NCBI GenBank assembly: GCA_903858275.1
Contig: CAIOIC010000136.1
Coordinates: 62,001-126,000, forward strand
Direction of reading: 5' to 3'
From: an uncultured Verrucomicrobia subdivision 3 bacterium
GTDB lineage: Bacteria > Verrucomicrobiota > Verrucomicrobiia > Limisphaerales > UBA11358
DNA: 64,000 nt
Below the pieces are notes generated by a model, which did not search any database, was not told the DNA's origin, and was given only the letters and a program-made list of their open reading frames with translations. Shown here one piece after another: positions 21,903-53,364 of this stretch. The position numbers and the translations under genes were made by a program. Each line of letters starts with the position of its first letter. The first letter of the stretch is position 1.

Positions 21903-22784
21903 TTACTTTCCTTTGCGATAGGCCTGAGGTGATTTTCCGAAAGTCTTTTGGAAGGCGAGGCGAAGATGCTCATCGCTGCGAAAACCGGCACGGTGAACGA
22001 TGTGTTTCACCGGCATGGCGGTTTCCTGCAGCAGTTTGGCGGCGCGGGAAATGCGGCAATATTGGATTTCTTCTAGCACGCTGCGCCCGGTGGCCGCCTT
22101 GAACCGGCGGTCCAATGTGCGCCGGGCGATTCCAGTTTTGCGGGCCACCGCCGGCACGTCCACGATGTCGTGGCTGTAATTCCAGATATATTCCACCGCG
22201 ATTTTTACCACCTCATCTTCGACTGTATCCGCTCCGCGAACCGTTTCGCCGGATTGATCCACCAGAAAATGCGACAACAATCCGATGGCCTGTCGCGAAA
22301 AATTGGCTGAGTTCACAGAAGGATTTCGATGAATGCACGCCAGTAAATGCTCAAACTGGGCCCGGAACAAGGTGCGGTTTTCGATGAGTGGAAGATTCTG
22401 CCGCAGATTAAAGGCTGCTTCGCGAAGCCAGCGGAGCGGTTCATCGCCATTGAAATGGATCCACATCAAAGTCCAGCCGGTTTTGGGTGACGGACGATGG
22501 CGATGCCATTCGCCGGGAAAGTAAAGCAGCGTATCACCCGCCCTGAGTTGGCCGCGGTGGGAGCGGGTTTGAAACTCGCCGCTGCCGGCGAGCAATAGCG
22601 ATAGGCAGAATTCCGGCAGCGTGCGCCCGTCCTTCCAATCGAAATAATAAAACGACGCGTCGCTTTGCGGGTAGGGGGCGTCCGGTTTCACGCGTTCCCA
22701 ACCGGCATGGGTCAGGTAGATCGAGTCATGAAACAAGGCTTCATTGACCGGTAGGGCGTGGCGGAATGGTTTGCTCGGGCTCAT
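21903..22784 (-). CDS. AraC-family transcriptional regulator
   Basis: The 293-residue protein has an N-terminal cupin-type sensor part (LLLAGSGEFQTRSHRGQLRAGDTLLYFPGEWH, given here in the order seen) and a C-terminal double helix-turn-helix: VDVPAVARKTGIARRTLDRRF and then MPVKHIVHRAGFRSDEHLRLAFQKTFGKSP. The architecture fits sugar-responsive activators. Its 5' end faces the motif region at 22839-22873, so it could regulate the methyltransferase run divergently, itself, or the DUF4832 gene it converges with. Confidence 0.92.
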   Translation of the reverse strand: MSPSKPFRHALPVNEALFHDSIYLTHAGWERVKPDAPYPQSDASFYYFDWKDGRTLPEFCLSLLLAGSGEFQTRSHRGQLRAGDTLLYFPGEWHRHRPSPKTGWTLMWIHFNGDEPLRWLREAAFNLRQNLPLIENRTLFRAQFEHLLACIHRNPSVNSANFSRQAIGLLSHFLVDQSGETVRGADTVEDEVVKIAVEYIWNYSHDIVDVPAVARKTGIARRTLDRRFKAATGRSVLEEIQYCRISRAAKLLQETAMPVKHIVHRAGFRSDEHLRLAFQKTFGKSPQAYRKGK

Positions 22785-22838: not shown

Positions 22839-22873
22839 AATGGCCTTAAATCAGGGGTAAATGATATTGCCGG
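22839..22873 (+). promoter_or_regulatory. Upstream motif, copy A (shared with 26641-26675)
   Basis: This 35-base block is identical at 30 of 35 positions to 26641-26675. Its core reads GGGGTAAATGATATTGCCGG here and GGGGTGAACGATATTGCCGG in copy B. Copy A lies 79 bases before the truncated UroD-like start at 22953 and so ahead of the AraC-mtaC-mtaB run. Conservation in otherwise diverged intergenic DNA suggests a regulator site or promoter element, although both copies could also be left from one duplication. Confidence 0.6.
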
Positions 22874-22952
22874 CCGGCCGGTGCAAAGTATTTAATTTGA
22901 TATAACTCCAGCCGGTTCATTATCGCCATTAACTTAAAAACTGGAGTTGGAT

Positions 22953-23090
22953 ATGAACAGAAAAGAACGCTTTATTGCGACCCTCGAACGGCGGCCGGTG
23001 GACCGGCTCGCGCTCGTCGAAATGGAAAACCTCCGCTCGCAAATGGAGGTGATCGAACTGAAGCTTGCCCCCGACTTTGAGGATCGTTAA
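22953..23090 (+). pseudogene. Truncated 5' copy of the UroD-family methyltransferase gene
   Basis: A 45-codon frame starts with MNRKERFIATLERRPVDR. The first 18 codons match those of the full gene at 26817-27848 in 17 of 18 residues, and 29 bases of leader including the GGAGTTGGAT ribosome-binding region are also similar (22924-23006 against 26788-26870). After codon 18 the sequence is unrelated (LALVEMENLRSQMEVIELK and on to a stop), with a coiled-coil look. It appears to be a gene start left by duplication followed by deletion. It could still act as a translated leader peptide for the AraC gene 20 bases on. Confidence 0.72.
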
Positions 23091-23110
23091 CTCGAACACC
23101 TGATGTTGCC

Positions 23111-23890
23111 ATGAACGATTTCCCCGCCATTACGTTGTTGCAACACCGGCCCTATGACCGGATTCGCGAACTTTATTTGATGCAAGAGCCGATGTTGCTT
23201 GCCGCCATCCAGCGCGGTGACCGGGGCGAGGCGCGTCATATCATCAACCACGTTCTCGTCCACATTTACAGCGCGGGCGAGGAGCGGAGCGATTTGCTGA
23301 AAGGGCTACTGCTCGAACTGGTGGTGATGATCTCGCGCGCGGCGGTCGAGGCCGGCGCGGAATCGACCGAGGTTTTGGGCTTAAACTTTCGTCTGATCAC
23401 TCAATTGGCAACCATTGACGATGACGAAGACCTGGCCGCTTGGCTGCGCCATACTTTGGAACACATGATCTCGACCATTGAGCGGCAGAAAGATTTTACA
23501 CCGCCACTGCTCGTCAGCAAGGCGCTCGATTTCATACGGACGAATTTGCACCGAGACATCTCGCGCGACGAGACGGCGCGGCACGCGGGCATTTCGCCCA
23601 GCCACTTTTCACGGCTGCTCAAGGAGCGGACGGGACGGACGTTCAGCGAGTTGCTGCGGCAATGCAGGATTGATCTGGCCTGTGATTTGATGCTGACCAC
23701 CGAGCAATCGCTGGCACAGATTGCGGACACTTGTGGCTTTTGTGACCAATCTCATTTCACCCACATATTTCAGGACGTAAAGGGGGCAACTCCCAAGCAA
23801 TTCCGGCAAAATTCCCAGGCAAAGCACGCAGATGCCAAACAAACGCACCGGCATACAAGACGCCCGGGGTTGGTGCGAGTTAGGATATAA
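23111..23890 (+). CDS. AraC-family regulator of the methyltransferase cluster
   Basis: The 259-residue protein has a C-terminal double helix-turn-helix: ISRDETARHAGISPSHFSRLLKERTGRTF and then QSLAQIADTCGFCDQSHFTHIFQ. The middle part (GDRGEARHIINHVLVHIYSAGEERSDLLKGLLLE, residues about 37-70) is the helical linker usually found in regulators carrying an N-terminal PocR ligand-binding domain, but no PocR domain precedes it; an in-frame stop at 23078 closes the frame. The N-terminal sensor has therefore been lost or was replaced. It is followed 5 bases later by mtaC, so it probably controls the C1 cluster. Confidence 0.9.
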   Translation: MNDFPAITLLQHRPYDRIRELYLMQEPMLLAAIQRGDRGEARHIINHVLVHIYSAGEERSDLLKGLLLELVVMISRAAVEAGAESTEVLGLNFRLITQLATIDDDEDLAAWLRHTLEHMISTIERQKDFTPPLLVSKALDFIRTNLHRDISRDETARHAGISPSHFSRLLKERTGRTFSELLRQCRIDLACDLMLTTEQSLAQIADTCGFCDQSHFTHIFQDVKGATPKQFRQNSQAKHADAKQTHRHTRRPGLVRVRI

Positions 23891-23895
23891 GCATC

Positions 23896-24531
23896 ATGAA
23901 CGATTTGCATCCGCTCACGCAGGCCATCATCGCCGGCAAACGCAAGGATGTTCCCGAACTCGTCAATCAATGTCTTGCCGCTGGGGAAAAGGCCAGTGAC
24001 ATTGTCGAGAAACGGCTCGTGCCCGGCATGGCCATCGTGGGCGACAAGTTCAAGCGGAATGAAATCTTCGTGCCGGAAATGCTCATCGCGGCCCGCGCCA
24101 TGAAGGAGGCGTTGAAAATTCTGGAACCCGCGCTGGTGGCGGCGGGCGTGAAGCCGGAACACACCGCCGTTATCGGCACGGTGGAGGGCGACCTGCACGA
24201 TATCGGCAAGAACCTCGTCGCGATGATGTGGAAGGGCGCGAACATCGAAGTCATTGACCTCGGCGTGAACGTGCCGCCCGCCAAGTTTGTCGAGGCGGTC
24301 AAACAACACAAACCAAGGCTCCTGGGCCTGTCCGCCTTGCTGACGACCACGATGCCCGCGATGCGGGAAACGGTGAAAACTATTCGAGAAGCCGGTCTGG
24401 CCGTGAAAATCTGCGTGGGCGGTGCGCCGATCACTCACGAGTATGCCCGGGAAATTGGGGCGGACGGTTACTCCGCCGATGCCGGCAGTGCGGTGGATAC
24501 GGCGATGGAATTATTGCAGGCCAAGAACTGA
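23896..24531 (+). CDS. mtaC: MtaC-like corrinoid protein
   Basis: The 211-residue protein has the two domains of methyltransferase corrinoid proteins: a helical cap (residues about 1-85) and a B12-binding Rossmann domain. The motif EGDLHDIGKNLVAMMWKGANIEV holds the DxHxxG histidine (His101) that ligates cobalt from below. LGLSALLTTTMPAMRETVK and ICVGGAPITHEYAREIGADGYSADA are further family blocks. It carries the methyl group between MtaB and a downstream acceptor methyltransferase. It sits 9 bases before mtaB. Confidence 0.93.
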   Translation: MNDLHPLTQAIIAGKRKDVPELVNQCLAAGEKASDIVEKRLVPGMAIVGDKFKRNEIFVPEMLIAARAMKEALKILEPALVAAGVKPEHTAVIGTVEGDLHDIGKNLVAMMWKGANIEVIDLGVNVPPAKFVEAVKQHKPRLLGLSALLTTTMPAMRETVKTIREAGLAVKICVGGAPITHEYAREIGADGYSADAGSAVDTAMELLQAKN

Positions 24532-24540
24532 TCGCGCCAT

Positions 24541-25923
24541 ATGTATTACCAATCTCTTGCCATCTCCGACCCGTTGGAACTGACCTTCGGCCTCGCGCCC
24601 AAACCCGTCACCACCAAGAGCGGCATGGTGATTGGTGGTGGCACGGTCTATCCCGAACTGAATTTCACGCTGCCGCCAATGACGATTGACGCGGGCACGA
24701 TGCCGGAAGTGCGGCGCAACTATGAGCAGATCATTGAAGGTGCACTCCGCCGCGCGGCGGACTTGGAAGCGCCGGGCGTCGTCATTGAGTTCGAGACTTT
24801 GCCACCAATGACCGAGCATCCGCAATGGGGTTTGGACATCGCTAAAATCCTGCTCGCAGGCATGGCCAAGGAGAAAGACCGCAGCGGTCTGAAATCCGTT
24901 CTGCGCATGACGCCCAACGACAACCGGGAGTTCGAGCGCCCGCCACTGATGCGGCGGGGGCGCTACTGGGACGCGATGCTGGAATTGTTTGAAGGTTCGG
25001 CGTCGGTAGGTGCGGAGTTATTGAGCATTGAATCCGTCGGCGGCAAGGAGCTGCACGATGAGGCGCTGGTCAATGGTGATTTGGCCGCGAGTATTTTTTC
25101 CCTCTGCATCCTCGGCGAACGCGACATGCGCTTTCTCTGGACGCATCTCCAGAAGATTGCCGACAAGCACGGCGTGAAATGCGCCGGTGATACCGCCTGC
25201 GGCTTTGGCAACACGGCGATGGTGCTGGCGGAGCAGAAGATGATACCGCGCGTATTTGCCGCCGTGGTGCGGGCCGTGACCGCTGTGCGTTCACTGGTAG
25301 CTTACGAATGTGGAGCGGTGGGGCCGGGCAAAGATTGCGGCTATGAGAACCCCATTCTCAAAGCCATCACCGGATTTCCGATGGCGATGGAAGGCAAGAC
25401 CTCGGCGTGCGCGCATCTGAGTCCGATGGGCAATCTGGCTGCTGCTTGCTGCGATACTTGGTCCAACGAGTCGGTGCAAAACATCAAGCTCCTCGGCGGT
25501 ATGGCTCCAACCTGCTACATGGAGCAACTCGCCTATGACTGTCGCCTGATGAACACCGCTCGTTCTCACGGCAAGGCTTCGGCTCAGCAGCTTCAAAGCT
25601 GGCTGGTGGAATCCGACGTGGCAACCGATCCGCAGGCGTTCATCATTTCGCCGACATCCTCAGTCGAACTCGCCAAAGCCATCGTTGCCAGTGATTCGCA
25701 TTATCACGCGGGTGTGGCGGTGGCCCGCAAGGCGGTGGAACTGCTGCGTGGCGCGCACGACAATGGCAAACTGCGCATCGCGCCAAATGAAGTTATCTGG
25801 TTCGACACATTGCAAGACACGCTGGATGACCTGCCCGAAAGCGAATCGGAATTCATCGGGCACCAACTTGTGTTGGCCGATAAGTCAAAATTCCTGCCCG
25901 CAGAATACGGATTGAAAGCCTAG
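24541..25923 (+). CDS. mtaB: Methanol:corrinoid methyltransferase MtaB
   Basis: The 460-residue protein has the length of Methanosarcina MtaB. MtaB uses zinc to activate methanol and moves its methyl group to the corrinoid of MtaC. The zinc ligands known from M. barkeri MtaB have clear counterparts: Glu164 in LLSIESVGGKE, Cys220 in AGDTACGFGN and Cys266 in GPGKDCGYENP. Other family blocks are RMTPNDNREFERPPLMRRG and ESVQNIKLLGGMAPTCYMEQLAYD. Pairing with mtaC supports the assignment. A related O-methyl substrate cannot be excluded, but the ligand pattern strongly favours methanol. Confidence 0.93.
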   Translation: MYYQSLAISDPLELTFGLAPKPVTTKSGMVIGGGTVYPELNFTLPPMTIDAGTMPEVRRNYEQIIEGALRRAADLEAPGVVIEFETLPPMTEHPQWGLDIAKILLAGMAKEKDRSGLKSVLRMTPNDNREFERPPLMRRGRYWDAMLELFEGSASVGAELLSIESVGGKELHDEALVNGDLAASIFSLCILGERDMRFLWTHLQKIADKHGVKCAGDTACGFGNTAMVLAEQKMIPRVFAAVVRAVTAVRSLVAYECGAVGPGKDCGYENPILKAITGFPMAMEGKTSACAHLSPMGNLAAACCDTWSNESVQNIKLLGGMAPTCYMEQLAYDCRLMNTARSHGKASAQQLQSWLVESDVATDPQAFIISPTSSVELAKAIVASDSHYHAGVAVARKAVELLRGAHDNGKLRIAPNEVIWFDTLQDTLDDLPESESEFIGHQLVLADKSKFLPAEYGLKA

Positions 25924-25946
25924 TTTAACCTCAACCTAATAAAATT

Positions 25947-26534
25947 ATGATACCTACCTTTACCTTGTTTATCGGCGTGGTTCTCTATCGCATCCTCGCC
26001 GGCTACTATGGCGCGGAAAATTCCTGGCTGTTGAACTTCTCGCCGTTGGCCGCCCTCGCCCTGTGCGGCCCGTTGGTTTTTCCAAGGCGCGTGGCGTTAA
26101 TTCTTCCGCTGGCCGTCTTATTGGCTTCGGACTTGGTGCTAAACGCCCATTTTGGCGCGTCCCTAATCACGGGCGAAATGCTGGCGCGGTATGTGGCGCT
26201 GGCGTTGGTGACACTGGTTGGCCTGCGCTTGCGTGAGTGTCGGAAGCTGGGAGTTTTCCTGTCCGCGAGTGTGGCGGGTTCAACCGGCTTTTATCTGATC
26301 ACGAACACTGTCTCTTGGGTGGCGGCACCTGAATATGCCAAAACTGTGGCAGGTTGGGTTCAGGCGCTCACGTTGGGAGTGCCGGGTTATCCGCCCACGT
26401 GGATGTTTTTCCGCAACTCGCTGGTCAGTGACGTCGGTTTCACGTTGGCCTTCATCGGTTGCCTCGCGCTGGCTCGTGCTGGCAGTTCATTCTCACCGAA
26501 CCGACCAACGCAGGATGCGAAGCTGGCCGTATGA
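25947..26534 (+). CDS. DUF6580-like membrane protein (possible ECF transporter S component)
   Basis: The 195-residue protein has about five to six hydrophobic segments. It begins MIPTFTLFIGVVLYRILAGY and includes NFSPLAALALCGPLVFPRR and PGYPPTWMFFRNSLVSDVGFT, which match the DUF6580 family as I remember it. Related proteins are thought to be substrate-binding components of ECF transporters. Placed 23 bases after mtaB in a corrinoid-dependent cluster, it may take up cobalamin or a precursor; that is inference from neighbourhood. No ATPase or T component is in the window. Confidence 0.75.
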   Translation: MIPTFTLFIGVVLYRILAGYYGAENSWLLNFSPLAALALCGPLVFPRRVALILPLAVLLASDLVLNAHFGASLITGEMLARYVALALVTLVGLRLRECRKLGVFLSASVAGSTGFYLITNTVSWVAAPEYAKTVAGWVQALTLGVPGYPPTWMFFRNSLVSDVGFTLAFIGCLALARAGSSFSPNRPTQDAKLAV

Positions 26535-26640
26535 TTGCTGGGTTGGGGCAGAATCAATTTCCCTTCACTCACTCCGGCTGTGGCGTAACGAGGGACACCC
26601 GGAGGCGAGGCGGGGGCGCTGTGTGGCAGTTGTCAGGTCA

Positions 26641-26675
26641 AATGGCCTAAAATATGGGGTGAACGATATTGCCGG
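26641..26675 (+). promoter_or_regulatory. Upstream motif, copy B (shared with 22839-22873)
   Basis: This 35-base block is 30/35 identical to copy A. It lies 141 bases before the start of the full UroD-family gene and so ahead of the rhamnose-related run to 35630. Between motif and gene start it carries about 62 bases more than copy A. The gap 26535-26816 holds nothing else I recognise. Confidence 0.6.
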
Positions 26676-26816
26676 TTGGTGTGGGTAAGTGTTAGAATAC
26701 ACGAACCCTGATCAAACTATTGCCGTTATGAACCAGCTTGGCTTAACCGTTTTGGCCAATTTTACTTACGAGTTGCCGCTGCATCACCGCCATTGAACTA
26801 CAGACTGGAGTAGGAT

Positions 26817-27848
26817 ATGAACAAAAAAGAACGTTTTATTGCGACTCTCGAGCGGCGGCCTGTGGATCGTCCCGCGTCCTGGCTCGGCATTCCGGCGACG
26901 GCGGCGCTGCCGGCGTTGCTGGCGCATTTTAAGGTCAATGATCTGGCCGGGCTAAAGCAGGCGATCGGGGATGATGTGTGGCCGGTGGAGCTGCCGTATC
27001 ATTCGCCGTTTTCGGACGCCATTTACATGGCCTTCGATTTTGCGAAAACCGGCCATGTCGTCAATGAGGAGCGCACCCTGAATTCCCCCGGATACTTTGA
27101 GGACCTCACCGATCCGGCGCAGGTGGAGGATTTCCACTGGCCGGATCCGCTGCAGCATATTTCCGAGGCGGAATGTCGCGCGGTGGTGGCGGAAGTTCCG
27201 GAAGATTACGCGGTGCTGGGCGTGGTGTGGTCGGCGCATTTTCAGGATGCCTGCGCGGCGTTCGGCATGGAGACCGCCTTGATGAACATGATTGCCGAAC
27301 CCGAGATGTTCCGCGCGGTCATCGACCGGATCACGGCGTTTTATCTCCAATCCAACGAACGGTTTTATCAGGCCGCCAAGGGCCGGCTGGACGCCGTGCT
27401 GATTGGTAATGATTTCGGCAGCCAGCAATGTTTGATGTTGTCTCAGGACTTGATCCGGGAATTCGTCTTTCCCGGCACGCGCGCCTTGGTCGCGCAGGCA
27501 AAAGCGCATGGGTTGAAAGTCATTCATCACTCCTGCGGCGCCATCCGGGAACTGATTCCCGACCTGACGAAAATGGGTGTGGATGCGATCCATCCGATTC
27601 AGGCTTTGGCGGTGGGCATGGATGCCGAGGGCTTGGCCCGCGAGTTCCGGGGCAAAGCCTCCTTCTGCGGCGGGGTGGATGCCCAGAATCTGCTTGTGAA
27701 CGGCACGCCGGATGCCGTCCGTCGCCGGGTGCGGGAGTTGAAGGCGTTATTTCCCACCGGCTTGATTATCTCGCCCAGTCACGAAGCGATTCTGCCGGAC
27801 ATTCCGCCGCAAAATATCCAGGCTCTGTTCGAAGCGGTGCGGGAGTGA
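26817..27848 (+). CDS. UroD-family corrinoid/cofactor methyltransferase (MtaA/MtbA-like)
   Basis: The 343-residue protein belongs to the uroporphyrinogen decarboxylase superfamily but starts MNKKERFIATLERRPVDRPA, as methyltransferases do, not as HemE does. A zinc-binding HxC pair is present as His238 and Cys240 in KVIHHSCGAIREL. In MtaA and MtbA the third zinc ligand is a Cys in a C-terminal PGC motif; here that place reads ISPSHEAILPD, so Ser or His replaces it, while a Cys lies earlier at 284 (SFCGGVDAQ). It probably accepts the methyl group from MtaC, perhaps passing it to tetrahydrofolate. A 5' fragment of a second copy lies at 22953. Confidence 0.85.
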   Translation: MNKKERFIATLERRPVDRPASWLGIPATAALPALLAHFKVNDLAGLKQAIGDDVWPVELPYHSPFSDAIYMAFDFAKTGHVVNEERTLNSPGYFEDLTDPAQVEDFHWPDPLQHISEAECRAVVAEVPEDYAVLGVVWSAHFQDACAAFGMETALMNMIAEPEMFRAVIDRITAFYLQSNERFYQAAKGRLDAVLIGNDFGSQQCLMLSQDLIREFVFPGTRALVAQAKAHGLKVIHHSCGAIRELIPDLTKMGVDAIHPIQALAVGMDAEGLAREFRGKASFCGGVDAQNLLVNGTPDAVRRRVRELKALFPTGLIISPSHEAILPDIPPQNIQALFEAVRE

Positions 27849-27907
27849 GCCCGGTCGTGAGCATCGTGCGACGCAATGGAAATACTGGCGATCGACACGG
27901 GATTGAA

Positions 27908-28258
27908 ATGAGAAACACAATTCAGCGCTACGGTACGGTGGTGGGGGTGAAAGCCGGCATGATGGCTCGTTACAAAGAACTGCATGCCGCTGCCTGGCCG
28001 GAGGTATTGGCCATCATCAAGCGCAATTACATTCAGAATTATTCCATTTACCTTCGCCAGCTGGCGGATGGCCGGCATTACCTGTTCAGCTACTTCGAAT
28101 ATGTCGGTGACGATTTCACTGCGGACATGGCGCGGATTGCCGCCGAACCGGTCACCCAACGCTGGTGGGCTGAATGCGTGCCGTGCCTGGAGTTGTTGCC
28201 CGACCGCGCGCCCGGCGAAATCTGGTCGCCGCTGGAGGAAGTTTTTCACCTCGACTAA
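27908..28258 (+). CDS. rhaM: L-rhamnose mutarotase
   Basis: The 116-residue protein interconverts alpha and beta L-rhamnose so that isomerase can use it. It has the family pattern RYGTVVGVKAGMMARYKELHAAAWPEV with the conserved Tyr and His, then NYSIYLRQLADGRHYLFSYFEYVG and PVTQRWWAECVP. I chose the ATG at 27908; the frame is open much further upstream inside the previous gene, without homology. It is 59 bases after the UroD-family gene and in the same direction as rhaT at 34566. Confidence 0.93.
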   Translation: MRNTIQRYGTVVGVKAGMMARYKELHAAAWPEVLAIIKRNYIQNYSIYLRQLADGRHYLFSYFEYVGDDFTADMARIAAEPVTQRWWAECVPCLELLPDRAPGEIWSPLEEVFHLD

Positions 28259-28303
28259 AAAAACATAAAGGATCTCCATTCAATTGAAAGAAGGACAAAT
28301 ACG

Positions 28304-29308
28304 ATGAAACACACCCTCGCCCTCCTTACCGCCCTGCTGCTGGCACCGCTTTTCGCACAGGCTCAGCAGCCAACCCCACCCGCCGCAACCGTGCACGACC
28401 GGCTCTGGCTTTTCGCCTGCCCGCCCGGAGGGGACGCGGAGTATCTCGAAATGGCCGGAGTGCGCGGCGGCTCCCGCATGACCCCGGTAGAGGGTGCTCA
28501 CTGGCTCGGTCTCAAGAACCTTCTTTTCGTCACCCAGGACCACACCCGCCCCAAAGCCATGTGGACCGAAAGCAAGTGGAAAGCGAAGACCACCATGGAG
28601 CAATGGGCAATCTCCTTTGAATCCATGCAACAGGTTAACTGGTCGGCCGTCGGCTCCAGCGGCGGCGGCGGGCTGAAGACCTTGCCCGACATCCTGACGT
28701 TGGCGAAGCGTTACCCGAACTTCACCGGCATCTATCTCGACGACTTCGTCAAAGACCGCACCAAACGCCCCGATGGTCGCTTCTCCGGCAAACCCGCCAT
28801 GACGGACGACGAGCTGAAGGCTATGCGGGAACAAGCCGCCAAACTCGGGCGTCCCATGGATATCTGGACCACCATTTACACCTATGATCTCGACTCCCGG
28901 CACGCCGATTACACGCATTGCGAGCCGCCGCTGGTCGATTCGATGAAGCATTTCGACGTGATCGTGCTCTGGACCTGGGAAAGCGCCGATTTGCGCGACC
29001 TCGAAAAGAACCTCGCCCGTCTGGAGGCGGTGAAGCCGAAGAACACCCGCATCGCCCTCGGCATCTACCTCTGGGACTACGTCGGCATTGACGAAACGAA
29101 GAAGGCGAACCCGACTTACCGGTGGGGCAAGCCCGTCCCGCTCGACCTCATGGAGCATCAATGTAACCTCGGCCTCAAGTGGCTTAAAGAAGGTCGCGTC
29201 ACCGACCTCGTAATTCTTGGCAACTCCCACCTCGACCTCGGTATCAACACCGCTCCGTGGATGCGCGACTGGATCAAGAAACATCGCGACGAGAAACTGA
29301 ACCGCTGA
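28304..29308 (+). CDS. Exported protein of unknown function, TIM-barrel-like
   Basis: The 334-residue protein has a signal peptide (MKHTLALLTALLLAPLFAQA). The mature part alternates strands and helices like a TIM barrel: FTGIYLDDFVKD, PMDIWTTIYTYDL, FDVIVLWTWESADL and RIALGIYLWDYVG. Acidic residues at strand ends (YLDDF, WTWES) could be catalytic, as in glycosidases. I do not recognise a named family. It opens a set of three exported glycan-active proteins that share nearly the same signal peptide. A glycosidase-like role in rhamnose-glycan breakdown is plausible but unproven. Confidence 0.75.
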   Translation: MKHTLALLTALLLAPLFAQAQQPTPPAATVHDRLWLFACPPGGDAEYLEMAGVRGGSRMTPVEGAHWLGLKNLLFVTQDHTRPKAMWTESKWKAKTTMEQWAISFESMQQVNWSAVGSSGGGGLKTLPDILTLAKRYPNFTGIYLDDFVKDRTKRPDGRFSGKPAMTDDELKAMREQAAKLGRPMDIWTTIYTYDLDSRHADYTHCEPPLVDSMKHFDVIVLWTWESADLRDLEKNLARLEAVKPKNTRIALGIYLWDYVGIDETKKANPTYRWGKPVPLDLMEHQCNLGLKWLKEGRVTDLVILGNSHLDLGINTAPWMRDWIKKHRDEKLNR

Positions 29309-29317
29309 AGATAAACC

Positions 29318-31981
29318 ATGAAACTCACCCTCCCACTCCTCATCGCCCTGCTGCTGGCGCAGTTGGCTCCGCTGACCGCTGCTGAGTTCTATGTTGCTCC
29401 CACCGGCAACGACGCCAACCCCGGCACGAAGGCGAAGCCATTCGCGACGTTCGAAAGAACGCGTGAGGCCGTGCGGCAATGCCAGACCCGGAGTGCAAAA
29501 TCCCAGATCGAAGTTTTTGTTCGCGGTGGGACGTATGAACTGCCGCAGACGCTTAAGCTCGGCGCGGCTGATTCCGGCACCGAGCAATCGCCGGTGGTGT
29601 GGCGGGCCTATCAGAACGAAAGGCCGGTCCTCGTCGGTGGCGGGAAGATCATGGGGTGGGTAGCTCATGAGAAAAATATCCTGAAGGCAGATGTGCGGGC
29701 ACTCGGTTTCACGAACCAGTTCCGGCAGCTTTTTTTCGATGGCCAGCGGCAGGAGCTGGCGCGCTATCCAAATTTTGACCCCGCCAAGCCGTTCGAAAGC
29801 GGCTGGACCTTCACGGACAAGGAGCCGGCGAAGACGGACACCCTGAAGCGCACGCTGCGCTATGCTGCCAAAGACGCGCGGACGTGGGCGCGACCGACCG
29901 ACGGCGAGGTCTGCATCTTCCCCAGCCACGAATGGTGGAATAATATCTGGCCCATCACCGCGGTGGATCGCGGGCAGCGCACCATCACGTTGCGGCGCGA
30001 TTGTTCCTACGATATCTCGCCCGGTGATCGTTACTTCGTGCGCGGCCTGCTGGAGGAGCTCGACGCGCCGGGCGAATGGTATCTGGACCGCGAGCAGGGG
30101 ATCCTTTATTTCTGGCCGCCGGCTCCGATCGAAGGGCGAAAGGCTTACGCGCCGAAGTTGAAGACCATCCTCGAACTTGGCTCTGGCACCGCGCATGTCA
30201 CGTTTCGCGGGTTCACGTTCGAGGTCTGCGAAGGCACTGCCGTCGTCCTCAATAATGCGACCAACTGCCTCATCGCCGGCTGTGCCATCCGCAACGTCGG
30301 CGATTACAACGGCAGCGGCGTCAGCGTGGCCGGCGGCGCGCGCAACGGCGTCGTCGGCTGTGATATTTCCGACACCGGCAACCACGGTATCAATCTTGGT
30401 GGTGGTGACGAGAAAACACTCACGCCGGCCGGCAACTTTGCCGAGAACAACCACATCACCCGCACCGGCGTGTTTCACAAGCAAGGCTGTGGTGTCAATC
30501 TTAGCGGCACCGGCAACCGCGTCGCGCACAACACGCTCCATCATTTGCCGCGATTTGGCATCATGTTCGGTGGGCAGAACCACGTCATCGAGTTGAACCA
30601 CATCCACCATGTTAGTTTGGAGACGATGGACACGGGTGCGATCTACGGTAACTCGTTGAACTGGCTCTCGGCCCACGGCTGCGTCATCCGGCACAATTTC
30701 ATCCACGACGTAATCGGTCGCAGTGGCAAAGCTGGCCAATGGCTCTCGCCCTATTTTGCCTGGGGTATCTATCTCGACTGGACCGCCATGGGCGTCACGG
30801 TCACGGGCAACATCGTCGCCCGCACGCCCCGCTCCGGCATCGACCTTCATGATGGGCGCGACAACCTCGTCGAGAACAATATCTTCGTCGAATGCGGCAC
30901 CGGCCGCAGCGAGCACGGCCAGACCAGCCAGATCGAGTTCAACGGCTGGGAGACCACCACCGGTTACTGGACGCGCGAGATTGCTAACTGGAGCCGGCAA
31001 TACGACTCGGTTGCCAATCTGCCGGCGTGGCGCAACGTCGCGAGCCTGTGCGACCCGCGCACAGTGGCGTTGCCCGATGGCCGCACCATGCAGCGGAATG
31101 TCGCGTGCCGGAACATTCTCTACTGGCGGAATCCGCAGCCGCAGGCGTTTCAGTTTCGCAACGTGTCGTTCGAGCACAACCTCTCCGACTCCAACCTCGT
31201 CTGGCACGACGGCGAACCGCTCAAGACCGGCCAGTTCAAACTCAAGTCCGTCACCGGCCCGAACCTCGCGCCGCCGAACGCCGGTTTTGAGCAAGGCGCT
31301 GCTGGGAAAATGCCTGACCGCTGGAGTTGGCATATCCAGCCCAGCACAAACGACCACGCCACGCTCAGCACCAACGCGCTGCACGACGGTCGTGGCTGCC
31401 TGTGTCTCACCGGCCAGCCTGTCGCCGCCAACCAGAACAAGGAATCTTGGGCGCGCATCCCGAGCGTGAAGAGTGCCGAAGTTGCCGTGCAACCTGGTCA
31501 GGTCTATCGCCTCATTGTCTGGCTCCGCGCCGACCGGCCGAACACGCGTGTCGAAATCGGCCTGCAAGCTTATCGACCCAACCTCTACAGTTGGCAATCA
31601 GTGAAGACCGTCAGCGTCGGCGCGGGGTGGGCGCAGCACGAATTGATCGCACGTTTTCCGTCGCAACCGCCGGAGTTGAAGAGCTGCTACGTCCGTGTCC
31701 GTTTGCCCGACGGCGACGGCGCGGTCTGCGTGGATGATGTGGAGTTGCACGCCGCCGAAACGATGGAGGAATGGGACGCGTGGCAGGTGCTCGGCATGGA
31801 TCGCCACTCGCTCATCGCCGACCCGCTGTTCATCAATGCCGCGCAGGATGACTACCGGCTCAAGCCGGAATCGCCCGCGTTCAAGCTGGGTTTCAAGCCG
31901 ATTCCCGTTGAAAAGATCGGTTGCTACCGCGATGACCTCCGCGCAAGCTGGCCCATTATCGAGAAAGAAAAGACACCGTGA
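29318..31981 (+). CDS. Exported right-handed beta-helix glycoside hydrolase, GH141-like
   Basis: The 887-residue protein has a signal peptide (MKLTLPLLIALLLAQLAPL). It begins after the signal with FYVAPTGNDANPGTKAKPFA, the opening seen in GH141-type and related beta-helix enzymes, followed by FVRGGTYELPQTLKLG. The middle (residues about 290-560) has repeated short strands with Asn ladders (GNHGINLGGGD, NRVAHNTLHHLPRFGIMFGG). Residues about 640-830 look like a carbohydrate-binding beta-sandwich (NAGFEQGAAGKMPDRWSW). GH141 members are known as alpha-L-fucosidases or xylanases acting on complex plant glycans. The exact activity here is uncertain. Its stop overlaps the next start. Confidence 0.78.
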   Translation: MKLTLPLLIALLLAQLAPLTAAEFYVAPTGNDANPGTKAKPFATFERTREAVRQCQTRSAKSQIEVFVRGGTYELPQTLKLGAADSGTEQSPVVWRAYQNERPVLVGGGKIMGWVAHEKNILKADVRALGFTNQFRQLFFDGQRQELARYPNFDPAKPFESGWTFTDKEPAKTDTLKRTLRYAAKDARTWARPTDGEVCIFPSHEWWNNIWPITAVDRGQRTITLRRDCSYDISPGDRYFVRGLLEELDAPGEWYLDREQGILYFWPPAPIEGRKAYAPKLKTILELGSGTAHVTFRGFTFEVCEGTAVVLNNATNCLIAGCAIRNVGDYNGSGVSVAGGARNGVVGCDISDTGNHGINLGGGDEKTLTPAGNFAENNHITRTGVFHKQGCGVNLSGTGNRVAHNTLHHLPRFGIMFGGQNHVIELNHIHHVSLETMDTGAIYGNSLNWLSAHGCVIRHNFIHDVIGRSGKAGQWLSPYFAWGIYLDWTAMGVTVTGNIVARTPRSGIDLHDGRDNLVENNIFVECGTGRSEHGQTSQIEFNGWETTTGYWTREIANWSRQYDSVANLPAWRNVASLCDPRTVALPDGRTMQRNVACRNILYWRNPQPQAFQFRNVSFEHNLSDSNLVWHDGEPLKTGQFKLKSVTGPNLAPPNAGFEQGAAGKMPDRWSWHIQPSTNDHATLSTNALHDGRGCLCLTGQPVAANQNKESWARIPSVKSAEVAVQPGQVYRLIVWLRADRPNTRVEIGLQAYRPNLYSWQSVKTVSVGAGWAQHELIARFPSQPPELKSCYVRVRLPDGDGAVCVDDVELHAAETMEEWDAWQVLGMDRHSLIADPLFINAAQDDYRLKPESPAFKLGFKPIPVEKIGCYRDDLRASWPIIEKEKTP

Positions 31982-34569
31982 AACACACCCTCACCCTCCT
32001 CTTTGCCCTGCTGCTGGCGCCGCTGTCGGCGCTGACCGCCGCCGATGCGCGGCCCGTTTATGTCGTGCCGAATTTTCATCCCGCCAGTTGCGGATGGCTT
32101 ACGGACTGGTCCACCGAGCGGAACTATTGCGCCAACTCCTACTTCGACCATCTCGACCGCGTCCGCGACGACGCGAGCTACAACTTCGCCCTCTCCGAGT
32201 GCAATAACCTCATCGCGATGATGAACTTCCGCCCCGATCGCATGGCGGAGTTGAAACAGCGCATTCGCGAGGGCCGCGTCGAACTTTGCAACGCGTTCTT
32301 TCTTGAGCCGACTATCAATCTCTCCGGCGGCGAGGCATTGGTGAAGATGGGCGTCGAGGGGCTGCGCTGGCAACAGCAGGTGTTGGGCGTCCGACCGCGG
32401 TTGAGTTGGATGATTGATGTCTGCGGCGTTCATGAGCAGATGGCGCAGATTGTCTCGGGCCTTGGACTCGACGCGCTGGTCTATTGCCGGCTCAATCCGA
32501 CCGGCAGCACGCTGCATTGGCTCGAATCGCCCGACGGCACGCGCACGCTCGCCATCAGCCCCGGCCACTACCTTGAATGGCGACCGATGTTCGGCGCGAA
32601 AGAGCCGCTCGCGGAAAAGCAGTTGCTGGCGCTGGCTGACGACATCCGTGCGCGCATTGAGCCGAAATCCCAGGATCAGGAAGGAAAGCGGCTGGCGGCC
32701 GACCTCAAGAGCGTGCCCAGGCTGACTCCTGCCGGCGCACCGGTCCTGATCCTCGGCGGCAGCGGCGACTACAATCTTGCGCCGCTCTACCAGTCATATC
32801 CGGCCGGGTTTCTCCAGCAGTTCAGAAAAGTCGCGCCGGAATTCGACGTGAAATTCTCCACGCCGGGCAAATATCTTGATGCCGTCCTGCCGGGCATCCA
32901 ATCGGGTGCAATCCAGTTGCCGACGCTGCGCAGCGGCACCGAGTTCACCTACAACGCGTTTTGGATCCAGAACCCGCGCGTCAAAGCGTGGTTCCGCCAG
33001 TGCGAACAGCAGCTTCAGGCCGCTGAGATGCTCGCCACCGCCGCCAGCCTGCGCGGGAACTTCGAGTATCCGGCGCAGACGCTGAATCATGCCTGGCTGT
33101 TGCTGTGCCTGAACATGGATCGCAACACGCTCTGGGGTGCGGCGGGCGGCATGGTGTTCGAACACGAGCGCAGTTGGGACGCGCGCGACCGGTTCGAGTG
33201 GGTCGAGCAAACCTCCCGCGACATCGCCACGCGCGCCGTCCGGTCCCTGCTTGGAACCGGCAAAACCAGTGTCCGTTTCAATCCGCTCAATTGGCAGCGT
33301 CACGACTTCCCCGAATTGTCCGCCTGCGCCACCGGCCCGGCATCCAAGCCGGCGGCCATGAAGGAAAATGCATTGGTTGACGCCATCCAGACAAAGTTCT
33401 ACTCCGCCCGGATCAATGCGGCCAGCGGCGCGCTGGTCAGCCTCAAGTTGAAATCCTCCGGCCGCGAATTGCTCGGCGGACCGGCCAATGTCATCGTCGC
33501 CGAGCAGCCGAAAAAGAAAATCTGGAGCGCCGCCGACCAAATGGTGGAAAGGCCGGAGCGCGAGCGCGTGGCCGATTCGAGCCAGTCCGCACCGCGACTC
33601 ACCGTTCGCGCCGGCGATGGGAAAACCATCGTGCAGGCGGAATCGGCGTTTATCGGCGGCGGTCGCTTGCGGCGCATGATGACGTTTTACCGGGATGATC
33701 CGCGGATTGATTTTGAAACTGAATTGAACGGCGTCCCTGATCGCACGATTGTTGTCGCCGAGTTTCCGCTGGCCGAGTCGGTGCGGGAAGTGCGTCGGGG
33801 TATTCCCTACGGGTTCTCCCACGCGGCCTGGGCGGTGACCAACGCCGCGTTATCCGGCATGGCCAAGGGCATCACGCCGGCGGTGCGCTGGTCGCATTAC
33901 CAGATGGTGGACACCGGCGTGGCGCTGCTGGATCAGGGACTCACTGGCCGCGAGATTACCGGCAGCACTCCGATCCTCTACCTCTACAACGCGAACGAGA
34001 CCTATCGCGGTTATACCAACTCGTGGCTCAGTGGCGAGGGCAAGCATGTGTTGCGCTACGCGCTGGTGGCGCACGATGGCGATTTCACCACGGCGCGGAT
34101 TCCGCGGGCGGCGTGGGAATTCAACAACCCGCCCGTCATCGTGGATGGCTGCGTGCCAGCCAAGGCGAAACCGTTCGTGCAGACCAGCGACAACATTATC
34201 GTCGAGGCTCTGCGGCGCGAGGGCGGCGAAATTGAACTGCGGCTCGTCGAATGCCTCGGCCGCACGGGCAAGGCGAGCGTGACGTTGAACCTCCCGCACC
34301 TCGACGCCGCGCTGACAGACATGCTCGGCGGCAATCGCCAGCCGTTGCGCGGCGGGCCGGATTACCAGTTTCCCGTGCGTCCGCAGCAGATTGTGTCCCT
34401 GCGTTTCAAGACCAAGTCCGCCGTCGCCGAAGTCAAGGCGCTGACCGGTTGGGATGAAATGGTTCCGGACAAGAAGCGCGAGGCGTTGCATCTTTATCTG
34501 CCGGATGTGAAAGGGCATCCTCCGGCGGCCGATGTTCCCCCATCCACCCCGAAAAAAACCAAGACATGA
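31978..34569 (+). CDS. Exported GH38-like alpha-mannosidase-family protein
   Basis: The 863-residue protein starts with GTG inside the stop of the previous gene (4-base overlap) and has a signal peptide (MKHTLTLLFALLLAPLSAL). The catalytic-domain pattern includes LVKMGVEGLRWQQQVLGVRP and SWMIDVCGVHEQMAQI, where the Asp of MID matches the GH38 nucleophile. The N-terminal zinc site is odd: GH38 enzymes have HxD before GW, but here the sequence is VPNFHPASCGWLTDW, with no Asp two residues after His. The C-terminal beta domain is present (VRAGDGKTIVQAE, PVIVDGCVPA). It is likely an alpha-glycosidase of altered specificity. Confidence 0.78.
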   Translation: MKHTLTLLFALLLAPLSALTAADARPVYVVPNFHPASCGWLTDWSTERNYCANSYFDHLDRVRDDASYNFALSECNNLIAMMNFRPDRMAELKQRIREGRVELCNAFFLEPTINLSGGEALVKMGVEGLRWQQQVLGVRPRLSWMIDVCGVHEQMAQIVSGLGLDALVYCRLNPTGSTLHWLESPDGTRTLAISPGHYLEWRPMFGAKEPLAEKQLLALADDIRARIEPKSQDQEGKRLAADLKSVPRLTPAGAPVLILGGSGDYNLAPLYQSYPAGFLQQFRKVAPEFDVKFSTPGKYLDAVLPGIQSGAIQLPTLRSGTEFTYNAFWIQNPRVKAWFRQCEQQLQAAEMLATAASLRGNFEYPAQTLNHAWLLLCLNMDRNTLWGAAGGMVFEHERSWDARDRFEWVEQTSRDIATRAVRSLLGTGKTSVRFNPLNWQRHDFPELSACATGPASKPAAMKENALVDAIQTKFYSARINAASGALVSLKLKSSGRELLGGPANVIVAEQPKKKIWSAADQMVERPERERVADSSQSAPRLTVRAGDGKTIVQAESAFIGGGRLRRMMTFYRDDPRIDFETELNGVPDRTIVVAEFPLAESVREVRRGIPYGFSHAAWAVTNAALSGMAKGITPAVRWSHYQMVDTGVALLDQGLTGREITGSTPILYLYNANETYRGYTNSWLSGEGKHVLRYALVAHDGDFTTARIPRAAWEFNNPPVIVDGCVPAKAKPFVQTSDNIIVEALRREGGEIELRLVECLGRTGKASVTLNLPHLDAALTDMLGGNRQPLRGGPDYQFPVRPQQIVSLRFKTKSAVAEVKALTGWDEMVPDKKREALHLYLPDVKGHPPAADVPPSTPKKTKT

Positions 34570-35630
34570 TCCCTCCCAATCCACTCCTCGGCACCGCTTT
34601 CCACGCCGTCGGTGCGGCCTTTGCGGCGCTTTGTTACACGCCGCAGAAGCGCGTCAGCGGGTGGTCGTGGCAAAGCTATTGGCTGGTGCAGGCGGCGTTC
34701 TGCTGGTTTCTGCTGCCGCTGGCTGGCGCATGGCTGACGATTCCCGAACTTGGCAAGGTATTGAGCGAGGCGCCGCGGGGCGCCATGCTTGCCTCGTTTT
34801 TGCTGGGCGCGGCGTATGGCATCGGGGGCACGGCCTTTGGCGTTTCCATCCGCTACATTGGTTTTTCGCTGACTTACGCGATTGCCGTCGGGCTTTCGAC
34901 CGTGCTGGGCACGTTGCTCCCGCCGCTGGTGAAGGGAACGCTTGGCGCGACGTTGAGCCAGCCGGGCGCGGGCTGGGTCATCGCCGGCATCATCATCGGC
35001 ATCATTGGTATCGCGTTTACCGGTTTGGCGGGGCGAATGAAGGAAAAAGATTTGAGCGCGACGGCGAGTCTGGCGGGATTTTCGCTGGTGACGGGATTGT
35101 TGCTCTCGCTGCTCGCCGGCGTTCTTTCGGCGGTTTATGGGTTTGCGCTCGAAGCGGGTGAACCGATTGCCGATGTGGCCACGGCGCATGGGGCAGGGGT
35201 GTTTCGGGGCAATGTGGTTTACATTTTTTCCAACACGGGCGCCTTTATTTCGACGGCGATTTATTGCCTGTGGCTTCATCGGAAGCACAAAACCATAGGT
35301 GAAATCGTCGAGCTTCCCGCCGGCGCTGAGAAAAGCAGCCTGCCCGTGAACTGGGCCATGGCGGTGCTGACCGGTTGCCTGTGGTATGGGCAGTTTTTCT
35401 TCTACAACCTCGGCCATGTACGGATGGGGAATTACAAATTCACCAGCTGGGCCATCCACATGATCATGCTCATCCTGTTCAGCATTGTGGTGGGCGTGGT
35501 CTTGCGCGAATGGCGCGGTGCCCGGATGACGACGAAAACCGCTGTGGGCTTTGCCTTTGTGGTGCTGGTGGGTGCGGTGCTGATGCTGACTTGGGGAAAT
35601 CATCTGGCTGAAATCCCCGTGCCGCATTGA
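34566..35630 (+). CDS. rhaT: L-rhamnose/proton symporter RhaT
   Basis: The 354-residue protein has ten hydrophobic segments. The opening NPLLGTAFHAVGAAFAALCYTP and the blocks GGTAFGVSIRYIGFSLTYAIAVG, GGVLSAVYGFALEAG-like sequence (here LLAGVLSAVYGFALEAG) and FFYNLGHVRMGNYKFTSWAIHM match RhaT. It imports L-rhamnose, and perhaps L-lyxose, with protons. It overlaps the GH38-like gene by 4 bases and ends the run. With RhaM upstream it shows that rhamnose is the sugar taken up. Rhamnose isomerase, kinase and aldolase genes are not in the window. Confidence 0.95.
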   Translation: MIPPNPLLGTAFHAVGAAFAALCYTPQKRVSGWSWQSYWLVQAAFCWFLLPLAGAWLTIPELGKVLSEAPRGAMLASFLLGAAYGIGGTAFGVSIRYIGFSLTYAIAVGLSTVLGTLLPPLVKGTLGATLSQPGAGWVIAGIIIGIIGIAFTGLAGRMKEKDLSATASLAGFSLVTGLLLSLLAGVLSAVYGFALEAGEPIADVATAHGAGVFRGNVVYIFSNTGAFISTAIYCLWLHRKHKTIGEIVELPAGAEKSSLPVNWAMAVLTGCLWYGQFFFYNLGHVRMGNYKFTSWAIHMIMLILFSIVVGVVLREWRGARMTTKTAVGFAFVVLVGAVLMLTWGNHLAEIPVPH

Positions 35631-38609: not shown

Positions 38610-39350
38610 TTACGCCGATTTGCCGGTTTCCAACAGGTGAGCCATCGGCGTCCAAGAGCCGTTGCCGGGCACTAGTGGGTTGAGGCAGGGTTCGGTGTGG
38701 GTCCACCAGCGCCGTGTGACAGGGTCGGCAGCCATGGCGGCATCGTCTGCTGCCTTGTCGCTGCCAACATATTCGCAGTAGGTGAAGAGGAGAAGTTCAG
38801 CGCCCAATTCGATCAGAAACGTGACCCAGTAGCGGAAGTGACTGCGTCCCATCTGATCAACCACGCCCGGCCAATTGGTTTGATGCAACGTCCGGTAGGT
38901 CAATTCACATTCCGGCTTGAGCGACGACATGAGTCCGAGTCGGGCAATCGGTCGGCCACCGGCCGGAAGCGGCAAGGTCGGTCCAATTGCGTTCATAAGT
39001 TCCATCCGCAGCCACAGCCGGCCGGCAGCCGCCGCCCGCGGATGGGCTTCCAGATGCTCTGAAAGCGTGGCGAACCACACGTCGGCATCCATCACGCTGG
39101 AAAGGGCTTCCACCTCCGCCATCGCTGTCCCTTGATATTCGAGGAAGGTAAATAAACAGGTCCGCTCGCCAATGGTCCGCATGAACATGTTTAAGTTGAT
39201 GATCCGAAGGGAAGCGAGCCGCGCGGAGAGATTGGCAGGGGCCGTTTTCATCCGGGCGGTCAGGGCCGCCTCGCTGCCTCGGCGAACCAGGGCAATCAGT
39301 CCGACCCGGCGGAAGTTTTCTGCATAAAGACGGTTTTCGTATGGTGACAT
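38610..39350 (-). CDS. Tandem L-rhamnose mutarotase-like protein
   Basis: The 246-residue protein contains two RhaM-type domains. The second (residues about 134-240) is well conserved: GLMSSLKPECELTYRTLHQTNWPGV keeps Tyr and His, followed by LLFTYCEYVGSD and DPVTRRWWTHTEPCLNPL. The first (residues about 14-115) keeps the fold pattern (CLFTFLEYQG) but has lost the Tyr-xx-Leu-His motif, reading LTARMKTAPANLSARL. So probably only the second half is catalytic. It may act on L-rhamnose or L-fucose; fucose mutarotase activity fits the surrounding fucosidases. It lies 27 bases after the nucleotidyltransferase gene. Confidence 0.82.
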   Translation of the reverse strand: MSPYENRLYAENFRRVGLIALVRRGSEAALTARMKTAPANLSARLASLRIINLNMFMRTIGERTCLFTFLEYQGTAMAEVEALSSVMDADVWFATLSEHLEAHPRAAAAGRLWLRMELMNAIGPTLPLPAGGRPIARLGLMSSLKPECELTYRTLHQTNWPGVVDQMGRSHFRYWVTFLIELGAELLLFTYCEYVGSDKAADDAAMAADPVTRRWWTHTEPCLNPLVPGNGSWTPMAHLLETGKSA

Positions 39351-39377
39351 GACAGGTTGTGGTGACGGTGTTTGAAA

Positions 39378-40196
39378 TTAAAAGCCGCGCAAATCCGTGC
39401 TGCTCCGCTTGGGTAAGCCGGGGGCGGGGGTGCGTTTGAGGACGAGATATTCCATGCCCATCTCCGCGCAATACTCGCGCTTGCCGCCCTTGTCGCCGTC
39501 TTCGTTGACGACGTAAATATCCGGCTTCAAACGGCGGATTTCCGGGTCGGCGTCCACCCAGCCGGAGCCGGTGGTGATGAGTGCCTGCTTTACATATTTG
39601 ATCGAGCCGACGACATAGCGCCGCTCGGCCTCGCACAACAGCGGATGGCCTTCGCCTTTCAGTAGCCGCACATTGGCGTCATTGCCGAGGCAGACGTAAA
39701 GATCGCCGTAAGCCGAAGCTTCTTCCGTAAAGCGGACGTGGCCGGAGTGAAACCAGTCGTAACACCCCGTTGCGATAACTTTCTTTTTTCCGGGTAGGGA
39801 AGGCATCGGTGGCGGCTCGGGAAAACCTTTCAGATCCTCCGCCGTGAAGACCCGGTAGGCGATTTTGTTTTCGGCCGCGAATTGGTTGCGGGCGGCGTTT
39901 GCCATCTCTACGATATCCACCCAAATATCAGCGCGAAGGTTTTTTGGTAGCGTATCGGAATCAATGCACGTCTCGGCGGTAACCACGTTTTTGACGTAGC
40001 GAACGGCCTTTAGAAAATAATTCCGTTCCGCCAAAGGAAGTTTGGGCGTTTTGCCGGTAAACTTTTCTACCGTTGCATCCGGCCAGAGTAGCACGGTCAG
40101 TTCACCGAGCTTGGCGGATTCTTCAAGAAAACGCAGGTCGCGTGATTTGATGTCGTCGAAACCACCGCTGACGATGACGCTTTTGACAAAGTTCAT
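39378..40196 (-). CDS. Tandem cytidylyltransferase-fold nucleotidyltransferase
   Basis: The 272-residue protein has two nucleotidyltransferase folds in a row. The C-terminal one (residues about 138-272) is intact: ATGCYDWFHSGHVRFTEEAS contains the HxGH motif as HSGH, and KRSST near the end stands for the usual ISSTR signature. The N-terminal one starts IVSGGFDDIKSRDLRFLEES, where the same position reads KSRD, so HxGH is lost. Such enzymes join a sugar or polyol phosphate to CMP, AMP or GMP. Next to a GHMP-type kinase and a GDP-sugar epimerase, it may activate a sugar 1-phosphate. It overlaps the upstream fucosidase gene by 4 bases. Confidence 0.85.
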   Translation of the reverse strand: MNFVKSVIVSGGFDDIKSRDLRFLEESAKLGELTVLLWPDATVEKFTGKTPKLPLAERNYFLKAVRYVKNVVTAETCIDSDTLPKNLRADIWVDIVEMANAARNQFAAENKIAYRVFTAEDLKGFPEPPPMPSLPGKKKVIATGCYDWFHSGHVRFTEEASAYGDLYVCLGNDANVRLLKGEGHPLLCEAERRYVVGSIKYVKQALITTGSGWVDADPEIRRLKPDIYVVNEDGDKGGKREYCAEMGMEYLVLKRTPAPGLPKRSSTDLRGF

Positions 40197-41752: not shown

Positions 41753-41765
41753 TGATTTGTTTGGT

Positions 41766-43397: not shown

Positions 43398-43409
43398 TTG
43401 CAGTTTTTG

Positions 43410-44933: not shown

Positions 44934-44936
44934 TTT

Positions 44937-50947: not shown

Positions 50948-50960
50948 GCCTTAACTTGTT

Positions 50961-52013: not shown

Positions 52014-52034
52014 TCTCCGCCACCGACTTAAATT

Positions 52035-53348: not shown

Positions 53349-53364
53349 TACTGTCCCAGCATCT

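Follow-up and report, generated by a model that had tools for sequence, protein, structure and literature searches.

Corrinoid methyltransferase genes beside a rhamnose-glycan operon in an uncultured Verrucomicrobia bacterium, and their possible role in sugar demethylation

Several described systems come close to the locus that we analyse here, an array of corrinoid methyltransferase and rhamnose-glycan genes on a stretch of 64,000 nucleotides (termed the window) from an uncultured Verrucomicrobia subdivision 3 bacterium. With the MtaBC proteins of the methanogen Methanosarcina barkeri (PDB entry 2i2x) the locus has in common the Pfam family of the methyltransferase MtaB, the zinc ligands of this protein and an adjoining corrinoid protein, but the window proteins score below the methanogen equivalog cut-offs and have sugar genes among their neighbours. 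Chloromethane cmu clusters combine a corrinoid methyltransferase with the formyl-tetrahydrofolate deformylase PurU, but their substrate and proteins differ from those of our locus. Outside methanogens, a UroD-superfamily protein, a corrinoid protein and an activase are also found together in the type 1 mlp clusters, which comprise MtaA-like proteins, a corrinoid protein and a Ram/RACE activase and for which a role in methyl-sulfur or methyl-selenide metabolism was proposed; neither 'sugar' nor 'Verrucomicrob' occurs in the main text of that study (PMC10418091). Finally, a marine P450 whose structure is available removes the methyl ether from 6-O-methyl-D-galactose, an oxidative demethylation in which formaldehyde is released (PMC10033563). 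In contrast to that route, a P450 of our source genome whose nearest solved structure is 6g5o shares its operon with corrinoid methyltransferases and RACo, and the unit of the window itself yielded no P450.

A literature search of titles and abstract openings, which covered few subscription journals, returned neither a corrinoid-dependent sugar demethylation nor a link between MtaBC and rhamnose. Polysaccharides of algae and bacteria are known to contain methylated deoxysugars. The reading that we tentatively favour, and to which we give a chance just short of even, is that the locus couples the uptake of rhamnose glycans to the removal and capture of methyl groups, by corrinoid-dependent demethylation of O-methylated rhamnose sugars. 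The arrangements found in relatives suggest that it serves to demethylate sugars and not to use methanol from pectin.

Two tandem units, a scar and a duplicated element

The locus comprises two tandem units, each of which stands behind one copy of a putative control element (Table 1). The first, termed the mta unit, has the order AraC1-MtaC-MtaB-DUF6580, and the second, termed the rhamnose unit, the order UroD-RhaM-three predicted exported proteins-RhaT. All genes that an earlier note on this DNA had named, from AraC to RhaT, were found on the + strand in the order it gave. Its claim that the first half runs directly into the second is borne out for strand and order only, since 282 bp with a control region of their own separate DUF6580 from UroD. 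The start of the feature in that note, position 22839, coincides with the start of a repeat.

This repeat (22839-22873 and 26641-26675) is 35 nt long and has 86% identity between its copies; a further repeated block (22911-23012 and 26775-26876; 82% identity) includes the first UroD codons. Within 22953-23114, 20 codons of the UroD start are fused in frame to the last 33 codons of a RACo gene, with a premature stop. In the relative G047, an RACo gene that carries RACo_C_ter lies directly upstream of the matching AraC1. The scar and the G047 gene order together indicate that the mta unit is a core that has lost its front, and the two ends of the scar, UroD start and RACo end, match a deletion inside an operon like that of the same-genus genome G027. 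From these arrangements we infer the order of events. The ancestral order, as reconstructed from relatives, would have been UroD-RhaM-DUF1638-RACo-AraC1-MtaC-MtaB-DUF6580. The UroD-RhaM part would have come to be present in a second copy, which now heads the glycan unit, and the first copy would have been deleted between UroD and RACo, leaving the scar as the joint of the deletion.

AraC2 is divergent to the scar and lies beside copy 1 of the element. The same-genus genome G012 has an ortholog of it (535 bits), which is transcribed away from an operon that contains both RhaM and RhaT (GFO/IDH-SBP-MaoC-CoA transferase-RhaM-MaoC-RhaT-amidohydrolase). In the gap between the two, an ungapped scan recovers a stretch that agrees with the element at 18/25 positions and starts at a similar distance from the AraC2 ortholog as in the window (62 bp, compared with 63 bp); over the whole element the match is 23/37. 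In 4.7 million background positions, the expected rate of an 18/25 match of this kind is 0.0006 per 120 bp, the best value of the four 25-base offsets tried (0.0006, 0.0008, 0.003 and 0.24 per 120 bp). A pattern search of the G012 stretch that allowed up to three mismatches did not find the element, which points to divergence of the G012 copy. AraC2 probably binds at this element, a copy of which now stands before the mta unit, and AraC2 is our proposed regulator of both units. Co-regulation is at this point a prediction from DNA sequence, of which the duplicated element is the strongest sign.

Among the products of a rhamnose-type operon at L228:4535-11123 are an amidohydrolase, a pair of MaoC hydratases and a CoA transferase III; the operon suggests an unusual CoA-dependent route for a deoxysugar.

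Conservation of the genes and their linkage in relatives

The MtaB residues highlighted in the earlier note, Glu164, Cys220 and Cys266, are kept in an alignment to 2i2x, where Cys266 is aligned with Cys269. We take Glu164, Cys220 and Cys269 of 2i2x to be the zinc ligands of MtaB. The histidine pointed out in MtaC is likewise kept, as H101 in the DxHxxG motif (GDLHDIG), where it presumably has the role of the cobalt ligand. MtaB passes the gathering cut-off of PF12176, which is 25, by a wide margin (Table 1). It remains below the curated NCBIfam equivalog MtaB_Meth (418 bits; cut-off 720), as does MtaC with respect to MtaC_Meth (126 bits; cut-off 420), and corrinoid proteins of the glycine-betaine and dimethylamine types outscore MtaC on the window protein. 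RhaT and RhaM also pass their Pfam cut-offs (PF06379 and PF05336), with a best NCBIfam score of 294.8 bits (cut-off 468) for RhaT and 50.2 bits (cut-off 99.6) to the L-rhamnose mutarotase model TIGR02625 for RhaM. Judged by these scores the family names hold, and exact functions do not follow from the equivalog scores.

Compared with G047, the dN/dS ratio is 0.044 for MtaB, 0.030 for MtaC, 0.070 for AraC1 and 0.19 for DUF6580; compared with G027, it is 0.094 for UroD and 0.037 for RhaM, the latter with dS saturated at 2.9. These low values show that the frames are under purifying selection and are not a chance pattern of open reading frames. G047 has close counterparts of AraC1 (94% identity), MtaC (97%) and MtaB (96%). 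MtaB was found in 7 of the 49 genomes of the genus and in 19 of 195 relatives.

We then compared gene neighbourhoods in fetched stretches, whose flanks reach at most 10 kb (many contigs are shorter) and whose genes were called by a home-made codon-usage script, so that labels denote similarity unless backed by Pfam. In G027 the order is UroD (81% identity)-RhaM-DUF1638-RACo-AraC1, with BHMT and PurU beyond on the other strand; the contig ends just past PurU. G090 has a row of epimerase, MetE-type methyltransferase, CoA transferase, amidohydrolase, GFO/IDH, RhaM, MtaC and BHMT genes, with RhaT on the other strand. In G205, UroD-RhaM-RhaT is accompanied further along by a gene resembling the GH38-type gene of the window (1083 bits; its Pfam support is weak). 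A UroD-family gene lies within 1.5 kb of RhaM in 10 of the 30 best RhaM loci, RhaM being matched in 125 of 384 genomes. With the window excluded, the count is 9/29, compared with 19/195 control genes (p 0.0013), the controls being taken from window, own-genome and MtaB-centred stretches rather than at random. The association of corrinoid methyl-transfer genes with rhamnose genes, as claimed earlier, thus extends beyond the source genome: the earlier note would have taken relatives in which the two halves are never adjacent as a refutation, but adjacencies were found in G027 and G090, and in the window the duplicated element precedes both halves.

The rhamnose-type operon of G090 (L217:1980-10156), with its MetE-catalytic-domain protein, MtaC and BHMT, is possibly another methyltransferase front.

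Full-length UroD genes of at least 60% identity number five, our own included, among 195 relatives and 384 members of the class; this set leaves out a 57-residue fragment in G177 (65% identity) and the genes of G131, G220 and G229 (36-41%). All five lie near RhaM (own, G027 and G438) or near a gene with an alpha-L-rhamnosidase domain (G432 and G135). In our refined reading it would be the UroD-type gene, and not mtaB, that tracks rhamnose. H238, C240 and H322 of the encoded protein are invariant in 29 aligned sequences, and the HxC motif of MtaA/CmuA is present as H238-S-C240. HxC we take to be the zinc motif of these enzymes, with a Cys near the C-terminus as the third zinc ligand. A structural model has the UroD/MtaA fold and matches MtaA (4ay8, 4ay7) and uroporphyrinogen decarboxylases equally well; PDB sequence searches with the protein and its profile gave no match.

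A number of observations weigh against the coupling that we favour. The third zinc Cys of MtaA is not kept in the UroD-type protein, which has S-P-S-H-E at 319-323 instead; H322 might replace the missing ligand. The score of the protein to the MtaA/CmuA model TIGR01463, 50.3 bits, is far under the cut-off of 235.4. Corrinoid genes adjoin UroD in only two of the five orthologs (own and G027), and the stretches fetched around UroD of G432, G438 and G135 contain none, with RACo present on other contigs of G432 and G135. The low MtaA/CmuA scores and the differing ligand would suit a UroD-type protein that is not a methyltransferase but one of the UroD-family members without an assigned role that lie near glycan genes in this class, the corrinoid genes acting separately on methanol. 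The equal resemblance of the fold to decarboxylases fits such a protein too, as does the frequency of UroD-family genes, which lie within 1.5 kb of as many as 19/195 control genes. We nevertheless judge this improbable, given that H238 and C240 are invariant and that UroD-RhaM heads the RACo operon of G027.

Further counts add to the same side. Neither RhaM nor RhaT is present in any of the 51 other MtaB stretches, which represent 50 loci and the second copy of our own genome; this second copy does have a RhaM-type gene at a distance of about 10 kb, just outside the fetched stretch. RhaM lies within 1.5 kb in none of 30 RACo loci (30 of 32 matches). Since G027 and G090 have no MtaB match, it is the corrinoid machinery and not the mtaBC pair that recurs with rhamnose genes, and MtaB may not be part of the rhamnose function. 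The window core has no RACo of its own, the single RACo match of the genome being on another contig. Finally, the element pattern yields one match with three mismatches in the G027 stretch, which is chance level, and by eye no element is seen upstream of UroD in G438, G432 and G135. The zero counts around MtaB and RACo indicate that the rhamnose front is one of several; as far as gene content tells, one and the same corrinoid module is combined with different fronts.

The two units could also be chance neighbours, a self-sufficient corrinoid core having been dropped beside a rhamnose operon by rearrangement, together with a duplicated control region that has no regulatory meaning. This is unlikely in our view, although the visible scar and duplication, the 51 MtaB stretches without RhaM or RhaT, the many contexts in which core genes are found and the three of five UroD orthologs whose fetched stretches lack corrinoid genes all agree with it. 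RhaM, however, adjoins corrinoid genes in G027 and G090, and the diverged element of G012 is found at the spacing from AraC2 seen in the window. The strong purifying selection on MtaB, MtaC and AraC1 also speaks against chance, but would be expected of an independent core as well. A simple accidental junction is weakened by the G027 operon and stays as a rival.

Other fronts, the methyl source and the fate of the methyl group

A sister core is found on contig C80 of the source genome. Its operon has the order MFS-P450-MtaA-like-GFO/IDH-TIM barrel-DUF1638-RACo-AraC1, with gaps of -28 to 42 bp, and 9 to 14 kb further on BHMT, PurU, MtaC, a UroD-type gene and the second MtaB are encoded. The MtaA-like protein reaches 157 bits to MtaA/CmuA (cut-off 235), compared with 55 to uroporphyrinogen decarboxylase. 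An alignment of the P450 to 6g5o covers 378 of 383 residues and scores 368 bits; the second-best P450 in the PDB reaches 139 bits. We take 6g5o to be the Zobellia P450 that demethylates 6-O-methyl-D-galactose. The code itself was not found in PMC10033563. P450 loci were seen on C80 and in G016, G135 and G266, the P450 of G266 being separated from RACo by about 5 kb that contain further genes; as these loci were drawn from neighbourhoods already fetched, their closeness to RACo is a biased count. A desaturase-Rieske-reductase protein is present in 8/51 MtaB stretches, with one weak match (50 bits), and its desaturase part has no match among the 60 of 84 PDB matches listed. Both kinds of neighbour, P450 and desaturase-Rieske, would fit methyl groups on sugars, and an operon that combines an oxygenase with a corrinoid activator may offer two routes to the same end, one that needs oxygen and one that does not.

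The example of this protein encoded at L036:7371-9629 has 752 residues, in which a fatty-acid-desaturase-like domain is fused to a Rieske ferredoxin domain and an NqrF-like reductase domain. A larger cluster of our own genome, G000:C80 ~29000-70000 (L154, L155 and L023), combines GH10, GH2, GH120-insertion-domain, aldose epimerase, P450, fatty-acid-hydroxylase-like, RhaM-type and two GH29-like genes with a complete corrinoid core, and is perhaps a methylated-xylan or deoxysugar locus.

As an example of a methyl source, the earlier note had named methyl-esterified pectin. The pectinesterase family PF01095 has no match in the source genome, which is 94% complete (other esterase families were not searched). 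It is matched in 48/195 relatives and in 32/49 genomes of the genus and is not associated with MtaB, being found in 4/7 MtaB-bearing and 28/42 other genomes of the genus (p 0.68), and in 5/19 MtaB-bearing and 43/176 other relatives (p 0.79). Pectin as the source is thus unsupported. We consider it quite unlikely that extracellular esterases release methanol from methyl esters for capture by MtaB and MtaC, while rhamnose from rhamnogalacturonan is imported, even though the zinc ligands of the methanol enzyme are conserved in MtaB and a GH28-family gene is present on the G027 contig. The proposed tie between methyl capture and a rhamnose glycan stands in kind, the pectin example is unsupported, and the account given of how the genes were joined is incomplete.

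The substrate and the flow of methyl groups we infer as follows. The exported enzymes would free rhamnose residues, some of them O-methylated, which would be imported by RhaT and mutarotated by RhaM. The UroD-type methyltransferase would then methylate the corrinoid of MtaC in its Co(I) state; should methanol be set free, MtaB would pass it to this corrinoid protein as well. The corrinoid would be reactivated by the RACo encoded on another contig, and a BHMT-type protein and PurU, also from another contig, would channel the C1 unit into methionine, tetrahydrofolate and formate. With 367.8 bits, PurU lies above its cut-off of 285.95; homocysteine methyltransferases are the best match of the BHMT-type protein, albeit under their cut-offs, and MetF is present in the genome. 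Since no gene identified in these clusters passes the methyl group directly to tetrahydrofolate, homocysteine is the likelier first acceptor.

In its general form the proposal is a B12-dependent, oxygen-independent removal of sugar methyl ethers. UroD-type proteins would be sugar methyl ether:corrinoid methyltransferases working on a shared MtaC/RACo core, the sugar-specific fronts would be exchangeable, and the C1 unit would go to methionine, tetrahydrofolate and formate. Here the front would be that for rhamnose; elsewhere, P450 or desaturase-Rieske oxygenases would be an oxygen-dependent alternative beside the same core. We regard this general form as possible, at clearly less than an even chance.

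Features of the window and significance

The features of the locus are collected in Table 1.

Table 1. Features of the locus in window coordinates. Export of three proteins is predicted from N-termini judged signal-like by eye.
Feature	Position	Strand	Evidence
AraC2, AraC-type regulator with ligand-binding domain	21903..22784	-	PF02311 + PF12833
Putative control element copy 1, before mta unit	22839..22873	+	86% identity to 26641-26675
Scar part 1, 20 codons of UroD start	22953..23012	+	copy of 26817-26876; direct repeat, translation
Scar part 2, RACo gene 3' end, premature stop	23013..23114	+	in-frame match to G047 RACo C-terminus
AraC1, regulator kept in corrinoid core	23111..23890	+	PF12833; 94% identity to G047 core regulator
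MtaC-type corrinoid protein	23896..24531	+	PF02310 + PF02607; H101 in GDLHDIG
MtaB-family methyltransferase	24541..25923	+	PF12176 540.9 bits; E164, C220, C266
DUF6580 membrane protein of corrinoid core	25947..26534	+	PF20221 103.5 bits; adjoins MtaB in several relatives
Putative control element copy 2, before rhamnose unit	26641..26675	+	repeat of copy 1
UroD/MtaA-superfamily protein, candidate methyl ether:corrinoid methyltransferase	26817..27848	+	PF01208 98.9 bits
RhaM, L-rhamnose mutarotase family	27908..28258	+	PF05336 95.1 bits, cut-off 23.4
TIM-barrel protein, predicted exported, possibly glycosidase	28304..29308	+	signal-like N-terminus by eye
Right-handed beta-helix protein, predicted exported	29318..31981	+	PF13229 64.1 bits; signal-like N-terminus
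GH38-type glycosidase, predicted exported	31978..34569	+	PF01074 83 bits; signal-like N-terminus
RhaT, L-rhamnose-proton symporter family	34566..35630	+	PF06379 176.4 bits, cut-off 27

The protein encoded at 28304-29308 belongs to a family without a Pfam entry that has 237 homologs at E 1e-10; its model is a TIM barrel, and Asp146-Asp147 are invariant across 23 aligned sequences. A separate deoxysugar cluster on the - strand (38610-47737) contains a second RhaM-family gene with an N-terminal extension, a cytidylyltransferase-like gene and four alpha-L-fucosidase (PF01120) genes. At 50108-54627, genes for a xylose-isomerase-like TIM barrel, a GFO/IDH oxidoreductase, a nucleoside-type symporter and a GDSL esterase stand in a row. 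A known RNA element such as a B12 riboswitch was rejected, as Rfam searches of the window at gathering thresholds gave no match. Scans for promoters and terminators gave little more than chance would (5 hits against 2.4 expected, and 6 against 6.8), and a plasmid search returned two records, both distant.

If the proposal is true, the corrinoid route would work without oxygen and would yield a usable methyl group. Some of the UroD-family genes that lie beside sugar genes in Verrucomicrobiota would thereby gain a defined function, and mtaB- and mtaC-like genes in such genomes would not need to signal the use of methanol.

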